From assembly GCA_007692605.1 (NCBI GenBank), contig REBS01000088.1, forward strand, positions 1 through 64,000: DNA of 64,000 nt, given 5' to 3'. Both the position numbers and the translations under genes were made by a program. This document shows positions 61,217 through 64,000 of this stretch, in pieces. The first letter of the stretch is position 1, and every line of letters starts with the position of its first letter. Below the pieces are notes generated by a model. That model saw only the letters and a program-made list of their open reading frames with translations. It made no database searches and was not told the DNA's origin. The DNA is from Gemmatimonadales bacterium (GTDB lineage: Bacteria > Gemmatimonadota > Gemmatimonadetes > Longimicrobiales > Gaopeijiaceae).

Positions 61217-62530
61217 GTGATCCGCCTCCCCAACCCGGGGCACCCTCCGCCCTGGCTGGTCGTACTCACACTCTGGCTCCTCGTCTTCTCGGCCAGCAGC
61301 CAGATCATGATCATCGCGCCACTCCTCCCCATGGTCGGCGATGAGCTCGGCATCGAAGAGGCACTGCTGGGGACGCTGGTTTCCGCATACTCGCTGATGG
61401 TCGGTCTCTTCGCGATCATCTCCGGGCCCTTCTCGGACCGGGTCGGTCGCCGTCGGATCCTCCTGGTGGGCACGGGCATCATGACGCTCGCGCTCGGTGC
61501 CCACTTCTGGGTGGCCGGGTACTGGAGCTTCATCCTGGTCCGCGTCCTCGCCGGACTCGCCGGCGGAGTCCTGTCGGGGTCGGCCGTATCGTACGTGGGT
61601 GACTACTTCGCCTACGAGCGAAGAGGATGGGCCACTGGCTGGATCATGAGCGGGACGGCCGCCGGGCAGATCCTCGGAATCCCGATGGGGGTCGTGCTGG
61701 CCGGCTGGTTCGGGTTTCGGATCCCCTTCCTGATCTTCGGCGTGTCGATGGCGGCCACCTTCGTACTGGTCTTCCTGACCCTCCCCCAGCCCGAGGTTCG
61801 CAGAAGCCCGGACCCGGTGACCCTGCGACGGGCGATCGTGGGCTACGTGGGCCTCATCCGGCGCCCCGAGATCGCGGCGGCCTGCTCGGCCTTCCTCCTG
61901 ATGTTCCTGGGAATCTCTTTCTACGTGGTGTACCTGCCCACGTGGCTCGAGCGGGGCATCGGCGCCACTGCGAACGAGATCGCGATCCTCTTTCTCGTCG
62001 GGGGGGTGGCCAACGTCCTCGTGGGTCCGCAGGCCGGCCGCATTTCAGACCGGATCGGGCGAAAGGGCATCATTCTGGTATCGTGCGTGGGGCTCGCCAT
62101 CGTCATGTCCCTCACCACCGTGGTCATCCGGGAGGTCTGGATGGCCTTCCCGTACTTCTTCGTCGTGATGGCGCTCGTCGCGATGCGGATCGGTCCCTTC
62201 TCGGCCCTTCTGACCGTCCTGGTGGCCAGCGACCGACGGGGGTCACTGCTGAGTCTGGCGGTCGCGGTCGGACAGGTCGGTTTCGCGGTCGGTGCCACCC
62301 TCTCGGGAATCCTCTACGCCTCGTACGGGTATGCCCCGACGAGTACGATTGCGGGTGTGTCGGTCCTGGGGATGGGGCTCATGGTGTGGTTCCTGATCCC
62401 GGAGCCGGGGGCCGACGTCACGGTCGACGGATTGGCGCGCGACCCTGGTGGTGGGGTGACTCCGGAGGGCCCAGACGTCGCAGCAACCGGCGGCGCGGGA
62501 CCGCTGAGCGGTCCGGGAGCCCCGGAATGA
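61217..62530 (+). CDS. MFS transporter
   Basis: This 437-residue inner-membrane carrier has twelve predicted helices and the MFS loop 2-3 motif GPFSDRVGRRRILL, repeated in weaker form as GRISDRIGRKGIIL between helices 8 and 9. The layout and lack of long loops resemble drug/proton antiporters of the DHA1 type, but the substrate is unknown. The last 35 residues are polar and glycine-rich. GTG 61217 is used; the helix 1 region begins soon after. It lies 31 bp after the SDR gene, so export or import of an SDR-related metabolite is possible. Confidence 0.9.
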   Translation: MIRLPNPGHPPPWLVVLTLWLLVFSASSQIMIIAPLLPMVGDELGIEEALLGTLVSAYSLMVGLFAIISGPFSDRVGRRRILLVGTGIMTLALGAHFWVAGYWSFILVRVLAGLAGGVLSGSAVSYVGDYFAYERRGWATGWIMSGTAAGQILGIPMGVVLAGWFGFRIPFLIFGVSMAATFVLVFLTLPQPEVRRSPDPVTLRRAIVGYVGLIRRPEIAAACSAFLLMFLGISFYVVYLPTWLERGIGATANEIAILFLVGGVANVLVGPQAGRISDRIGRKGIILVSCVGLAIVMSLTTVVIREVWMAFPYFFVVMALVAMRIGPFSALLTVLVASDRRGSLLSLAVAVGQVGFAVGATLSGILYASYGYAPTSTIAGVSVLGMGLMVWFLIPEPGADVTVDGLARDPGGGVTPEGPDVAATGGAGPLSGPGAPE

Positions 62531-62627: not shown

Positions 62628-63848
62628 ATGAGTCCAACCACGTCACGGTCCCACCCGACGCCCCGCAATCCCGTCCGGATCCTTCTGGTCGAAGACGACC
62701 TCGACCAGGCTCACCTCGTGAAGTTTCTCCTCGAAGCCGGGGGAGATTACTCGGTAACCCTCGTGCAGGACGGAGACCGGGCCATCGACCTGCTTCGGGA
62801 ACGGGAGTGGGAACTCCTGATCACCGACCTGAACCTGCCCGGCGCAGACGGAACCGCGGTCGTCGACTTCGCCCGAACCCGACAGGACCGGTTGCCGATC
62901 CTCGCGACCACGGGGTACACGGGTCCGGAGTATGCCCAGCGAGCGATCGACATGGGAGCCGACGACGTTCTCGTGAAGCCCCTCGACCGGGACGAGCTCA
63001 TCGAACGCGTGCGGACGCTCATCCAGAGCGGTCGTCCCGACCGTCGCCCGTCGGCACCCGTGGAGCTGGATCGCCTTCCGGCGGAGCCTCCTCCCGACCG
63101 CCCTCCGGAGCCCGAACCACAGCCCCCCACCCCGATCCGAGACCCCCTTCAGATCCTGGCCATCGGGGTTCGGCCCGGGGACGTGGAAGCCGGGTGCGGT
63201 GGCACCCTCCTGCGCCACCTGGCCCTTGGCGACGGCGTCGTCGTCCTGCACCTCACGAATGAGCCCCGCGAAGACGGGCACGATCCGAACGGAGTGGGTG
63301 TCCGCGAGGTCGCGAGGGAGGCCGGAAGACTCCTGGGGGTGCGAATCTTCGTGGGCAACGTTCGCACGGATCCTGAAGCCGACGGTACGGAGCTGGAGCG
63401 CCTCGCAGGCGGAGCGGTGCGAGAGATCGCGCCCGACATCCTGTACGTCCCCTCGTCCCGGGAACAGAGCCCCGTTCACCGAGCCGCTCTCTCTGCCGCG
63501 ACCCGCGCGGCCTCGGGCGTCCCGAGCCAGTTCGGCTACGACTCCGGTACAGTCTCACCGGACTTCGCTCCTCACGTCTTCGTCCCCCTCTCCGATGCGG
63601 ATCTCGACCGCAAGGTCACTGCTCTGGCTCCGTACCAGGCCCACGCTCGAAGTCATCTGGCGGCAGACTTCGTGCGAGCATCCGCCCGCTTCTGGGGGCG
63701 ATACTCGAATACTCCCGCAACCGAAGCCTTCGAGCTTCTGGAGGGCGCTCCCCCCTTCACCGACGCCGTGATCGTGGAACGCGCCGACCCGGCGCCCTCG
63801 CCTGCTGGACCATCGAATTCCCTGCCCCGCGAACCGGAGTTCCAATGA
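62628..63848 (+). CDS. Receiver domain fused to a degenerate PIG-L-type deacetylase domain
   Basis: This 406-residue protein starts with a response-regulator receiver (about 16-135). It has acidic pocket residues VEDD (22-24), phospho-acceptor Asp67 in TDLNLPGADG, and Lys117 in VKPLD. A proline-rich linker (about 138-172) leads to a LmbE/PIG-L-type domain (about 175-380). Its core IELGCGGTL block reads VEAGCGGTL. The normal AHPDD becomes VRPGD (Arg182, Gly184), so the first zinc-binding His and the catalytic Asp are both missing. The later His (PVHRAAL, H284) and the family tail FWGR...AEAFELLEG-like segment remain. The output may thus be ligand binding rather than deacetylation. ATG 62628 is the family-like start. 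The stop overlaps the LOG gene by 4 bp. Confidence 0.85.
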   Translation: MSPTTSRSHPTPRNPVRILLVEDDLDQAHLVKFLLEAGGDYSVTLVQDGDRAIDLLREREWELLITDLNLPGADGTAVVDFARTRQDRLPILATTGYTGPEYAQRAIDMGADDVLVKPLDRDELIERVRTLIQSGRPDRRPSAPVELDRLPAEPPPDRPPEPEPQPPTPIRDPLQILAIGVRPGDVEAGCGGTLLRHLALGDGVVVLHLTNEPREDGHDPNGVGVREVAREAGRLLGVRIFVGNVRTDPEADGTELERLAGGAVREIAPDILYVPSSREQSPVHRAALSAATRAASGVPSQFGYDSGTVSPDFAPHVFVPLSDADLDRKVTALAPYQAHARSHLAADFVRASARFWGRYSNTPATEAFELLEGAPPFTDAVIVERADPAPSPAGPSNSLPREPEFQ

Positions 63849-64000
63849 CCCCCGATCGGCCCGACCCCGACCCCACCCCGGACACCCCTTCGGACTCCGA
63901 TTCCGACCTCCGGTGGATCTGTGTCTTCTGCGGATCGAGCGCGGGAGAAGACCCGCGGTATCTGGACGCCGCGACGAAGCTGGGGAGGAGCCTTGCGGCA
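63845..64000 (+). CDS. LOG-family (TIGR00730) protein, N-terminal fragment
   Basis: This partial gene runs off the right edge after 52 residues. A disordered Asp/Pro/Ser-rich leader (about 1-22) is followed by WICVFCGSSAGEDPRYLDAA and a helix (TKLGRSLA). Together these are the opening of the LOG/lysine-decarboxylase-like fold, whose members are nucleoside 5-monophosphate phosphoribohydrolases (cytokinin-activating type) or unknown nucleotide hydrolases. The catalytic PGGxGTxxE motif would lie beyond the window. ATG 63845 overlaps the receiver/PIG-L stop as ATGA, so the two are translated together. Confidence 0.85.
   Translation, partial: MTPDRPDPDPTPDTPSDSDSDLRWICVFCGSSAGEDPRYLDAATKLGRSLAA

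Follow-up and report, generated by a model that had tools for sequence, protein, structure and literature searches.

A putative orphan response regulator with a degenerate PIG-L domain as its likely pseudoenzyme output in Gemmatimonadota

Response regulators with enzymatic output domains are known, for example the REC-KaiC and REC-glycosyltransferase proteins of archaea (PMC5847659). The locus described here raises the question of what a receiver domain may control when it is fused to an enzyme domain whose active-site residues have been replaced. It lies at the end of the window, i.e. the whole stretch of 64,000 nucleotides that was analysed (contig REBS01000088.1 of a Gemmatimonadales bacterium), and its product had been interpreted in the initial annotation as a receiver-driven pseudo-deacetylase coupled to a LOG-family gene. 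None of the papers searched described a PIG-L pseudoenzyme or a protein joining a receiver to PIG-L. Judging from sequence comparison, we consider it on balance likely that the window protein acts as an orphan response regulator and that a pseudoenzyme, a retired deacetylase of the PIG-L/LmbE type, serves as its output domain.

Domain architecture and metal site of the fusion protein

The fusion gene (62628..63848, + strand) encodes a protein of 406 amino acids with Pfam matches to both Response_reg and PIG-L. Its ATG start is backed by an orthologue from the same genus, the N-terminus of which reads MSSATSRSHPTPRNPV. The Response_reg match (2.8e-23) covers aa 18-129 (62679..63014, + strand), and the residues expected of a response regulator are all present: the acidic pair D23/D24, the phospho-acceptor D67, T95 at the Thr/Ser position, and K117. 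The earlier claim of an intact receiver, based on Asp67 and Lys117, was thus borne out. The protein was modelled with AlphaFold on the basis of five sequences; the mean pLDDT was 72.6, with low values for the linker and the two tails. In Foldseek searches, receiver structures matched this model with a TM of ~0.9. PIG-L-fold structures (2IXD, 1UAN, BshB) also matched it, the matches to LmbE-like enzymes being 2IXD, 1UAN, and 6P2T.

The PIG-L/LmbE-fold domain extends over approximately aa 174-376 (63147..63755, + strand) and is predicted to be non-catalytic. Its Pfam match (PF02585, aa 183-294, 1.2e-7) exceeds the curated cut-off, phmmer matched the same part to TT1542 (1UAN) at 1.2e-7, and the Rossmann-like LmbE fold likewise places it in the PIG-L/LmbE group. 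With the N-acetylglucosaminyl deacetylases MshB, BshB, and TT1542, the window protein shares the fold, the GCGG loop, and the C-terminal part; in contrast to them, it lacks the HXDD + H metal motif and is fused to a receiver. The characterised LmbE-like enzymes all share the motif HXD1D2 + H, in which two histidines and D2 are the metal ligands and D1 is the catalytic acid/base, and in MshB the loss of H144 or D146 alone reduces activity to ≤1% (PMC4101496). In the window protein, H-P-D-D is replaced by R182-P-G184-D185 (63171..63182, + strand), within the sequence V-R182-P-G184-D185-V-E-A-G-C-G-G, so that the VRPGD read earlier in place of AHPDD is confirmed in the translation. The second motif, H-P-D-H, is replaced by S281-P-V-H284 (63468..63479, + strand). 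The three metal positions thus carry R182, D185, and H284, and G184 stands in the place of D1.

A search for proteins combining Response_reg and PIG-L, as the initial annotation had proposed, yielded 51 fusions, several of them partial. The site is degenerate in 47 of these. Gly replaces the catalytic Asp at position 184 in 45 of the 47 degenerate homologues, and none has His at position 182, where Arg occurs in 30. Position 284 is Arg in 31 degenerate rows and His in just 4 of 47. The late histidine described earlier as kept is thus a misleading feature of the window protein, and H284 was rejected as a surviving metal ligand. In contrast, the third metal ligand, position 185, is Asp or Glu in 46/46 degenerate rows that have it. 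Arg or Lys occupies at least one of the two zinc-histidine positions in 45/46 degenerate rows; for Arg at 182 or 284 the count is also 45/46 (Fisher p = 0.007, a value that ignores the shared descent of the rows). Positions 281-283 of the second motif rank at the 49th-95th percentile of entropy and hence belong to the more variable positions. In the intact and degenerate groups alike, Y304, F313, P315, K329, W356, E366, and E369 are near-invariant; all of these lie outside the metal site. A sequencing error at the motif was rejected, since the same-genus orthologue reads IRPGD and Gly184 recurs throughout the degenerate group. These replacements make it very likely that catalysis has been lost in the degenerate proteins. 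The PIG-L domain of the window protein is predicted not to bind zinc; residual weak or altered metal binding may persist, as Asp185 is kept.

The receiver is conserved throughout. D23, D67, and K117 are kept in every aligned homologue covering them, and T95 is kept as T or S; among the degenerate rows covering the respective positions, D67 occurs in 45/45 and K117 in 46/46.

Distribution, origin, and selection of the degenerate form

The fusion is present in approximately 50 of 121 genomes of the Gemmatimonadota family to which the window belongs, distributed over 24 genera, and some genera of the family are without it. In another family of the same class it was found in one of 179 genomes (G247). 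Beyond G247, no further protein joining both domains outside the family turned up among 394 genomes drawn from across the class, and no viral or plasmid homologue spanned both domains. A narrow family-level distribution and the combination of a receiver with a metabolic-type domain are features shared with REC-KaiC and REC-glycosyltransferase, whereas the output domain of the window protein is without catalytic residues next to an intact set of receiver residues (PMC5847659 for the archaeal proteins). The window protein belongs to a known type, response regulators whose output domain derives from an enzyme; here this domain has probably become a pseudoenzyme. In three genomes the fusion gene is seemingly split between frames (L045:9007-9849 in G007, L144 in G117, and L139 in G091), which reflects either decay or assembly errors.

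Four fusions are intact (HPDD + HxDH): G131 has two copies, and G012 and G247 have one each. They share the two-domain architecture and the C-terminal signature with the window protein but retain both metal motifs, and the G131 copies adjoin ATP-grasp and kinase genes. In a tree computed without the motif columns, the intact fusions (four rows) and all of the degenerate ones fell on opposite sides of one branch, which had a support of 99/98 and was recovered in 100% of the bootstrap trees. After rooting with standalone PIG-L proteins, all degenerate rows grouped in one clade (99/98), with the intact rows as a grade below it. Since a single branch separates the two groups, one ancestral loss of catalysis is the simplest account and is probably what occurred. 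Orthologues with an intact HPDD motif, which had been named beforehand as evidence against a distinct degenerate system, do exist; however, all of them fall outside the degenerate clade and, because of this placement, mark the likely ancestral state. For the PIG-L part, dN/dS was 0.09-0.15 in five of seven degenerate pairs and 0.126 in the intact pair; the outliers were the distant pair G000/G002 (0.33) and the pair L017/L064 (0.41), for which the receiver gave 0.52. Strong purifying selection has acted on the degenerate PIG-L domain since the probable loss of catalysis.

Gene neighbourhoods of degenerate and intact fusions

The degenerate fusions reside in a gene block with the order SDR-MFS-[fusion]-accA-metG. 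In the window, the constant upstream neighbour is an MFS transporter gene (61217..62530, + strand; Pfam MFS_1, 8.9e-61), and a same-strand MFS gene precedes the fusion in 42 of the 47 degenerate loci; it was not found in the remaining five, which have flanks of about 1 kb or end with the contig. Downstream follows a LOG-family gene (63845..64489, + strand, the window ending at 64000), assigned by its PF03641 match (1e-40) and the PGGxGT motif (APGGLGTIEEF in the translation). Direct reading verified the reported 4-bp overlap, the LOG start codon lying inside the fusion stop (ATGA). The functional coupling proposed on this basis did not hold. The absence of LOG beside most orthologues had been named beforehand as a refutation, and this is what the loci show. 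Of the 47 degenerate loci, only 11 have LOG directly next to the fusion, and these all belong to a 14-member subclade containing the window, in which the spacing ranges from -10 to +39 bp; the three other members are without adjacent LOG, and in one further degenerate locus LOG follows an M1 peptidase gene. In many loci without adjacent LOG, an M1 peptidase gene or accA lies directly 3' of the fusion. Conversely, family members without the fusion carry MFS followed by accA, or MFS-LOG-accA (G017). A fusion-LOG functional pair as a general feature was therefore rejected by synteny. The fusion is thus an optional member of the conserved housekeeping block around MFS and accA, and given this gene order neither LOG nor MFS is established as a functional partner. 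In about 16 loci (L017/L046, L019/L048, L021/L050, and 13 others), a gene for an M1-family aminopeptidase takes the place of LOG downstream of the degenerate fusion.

No histidine kinase gene adjoins the degenerate copies in the loci inspected. The window genome contains 38 HATPase_c matches, none beside the fusion gene. The sole match on the contig (window 29278-29631, - strand, 7.4e-22) lies in a 762-aa frame about 33 kb from the fusion.

The intact fusions are located in different surroundings. In both G131 copies (L140:5549-11464 and L130:1223-7018), the intact receiver-PIG-L gene is followed by an ATP-grasp gene (ATPgrasp_Ter, PRK12767-like) and by a gene for a large hybrid histidine kinase, which in the copy scanned has the architecture PAS-HisKA-HATPase-REC-Hpt. 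PHP, TPR, and NtrC-type genes are found nearby, with GGDEF-EAL in the copy scanned. The ATP-grasp gene was sought in the other genomes of the family and was not found in any of these 120 (of 121), and a carry-over of this cassette into degenerate genomes was rejected. The G247 fusion is situated at a contig end (L141:1-5673) with TPR, PHP, and GT2 genes within 5 kb, the GT2 product resembling PgaC/IcaA below the cut-off. This gene set is similar to exopolysaccharide loci. The neighbours suggest that the intact form may act, controlled by a kinase, on a surface polymer that contains GlcNAc or on a precursor of such a polymer.

Possible functions of the degenerate output domain

Several explanations other than a pseudoenzyme output were considered. 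The domain could still be catalytically active, its site being rearranged or metal-free and built around Asp185 and the conserved C-terminal residues; the retention of D/E185 and the near-invariance of the C-terminal set speak for this, but the general base and both zinc histidines are gone, the second motif is comparatively variable, and the MshB variants cited above retain next to no activity, so that we regard this as quite unlikely. Somewhat less doubtful, yet still unlikely, is that the pseudo-PIG-L domain regulates an active standalone PIG-L deacetylase by phosphorylation-dependent hetero-oligomerisation. Pseudoenzymes are often paired with active paralogues, and the window genome does contain three other PIG-L genes, at least one of them with an intact AHPDD. 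Formation of hexamers by BshB (PMC4101496) would also suit such an arrangement. However, the neighbourhoods examined showed no active PIG-L gene linked to the locus, and genera without the fusion also have standalone PIG-L genes.

The two remaining alternatives concern the locus as a whole. That the fusion and the LOG hydrolase form a signalling and nucleotide-metabolism module is very improbable: the overlap in the window and the tight spacing across the LOG-bearing subclade are confined to a minority of loci, LOG stands in the same block without the fusion in G017, and the fusion is kept in genomes without adjacent LOG. There is even less reason to regard the gene as a decaying remnant retained merely by its position inside a housekeeping block. 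The split-looking copies and the absence of the gene from genera of the same family would fit decay, but the low dN/dS in most close pairs, the conserved receiver, and the spread over 24 genera speak strongly against it.

The reading we favour therefore remains that of an orphan response regulator whose output is a pseudoenzyme. The core of the initial annotation, a pseudo-deacetylase driven by a receiver, is well supported by the kept receiver residues, the clade-wide loss of the site, and purifying selection; its LOG module is not. According to the model we propose, an ancestral receiver-PIG-L enzyme would have had a normal HxDD + H zinc site, and in the version within the MFS-accA block of one Gemmatimonadota family the catalytic Asp would have changed to Gly and the zinc His mostly to Arg, with fold and receiver being retained ever after. 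D67 of the window receiver is presumably phosphorylated by a histidine kinase, which would be encoded elsewhere in the genome. The phosphorylated receiver would then alter the assembly or the exposure of the PIG-L module, which would serve for binding, of either a small ligand or a partner protein, and not for hydrolysis. The degenerate domain is thus probably a signal-controlled binding module and not an enzyme, and we infer with moderate confidence that its binding is gated by phosphorylation. That the protein senses a sugar or a nucleotide, as suggested earlier, is conjecture. One tentative and rather doubtful variant is a class of response regulators acting as phospho-gated receptors, in which Arg takes the place of zinc and faces Asp185, creating a cationic pocket that would accept an anionic ligand, either a sugar or a nucleotide.

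If such an Arg-for-zinc receptor were to exist, one protein would integrate the signal of a kinase with that of a metabolite. More generally, the family would represent a single-origin case of an enzyme turned signalling output domain, for which the intact relatives provide controls within the same bacterial class. With both intact and degenerate relatives at hand, what is gained from a dead enzyme would be directly testable in a response regulator.
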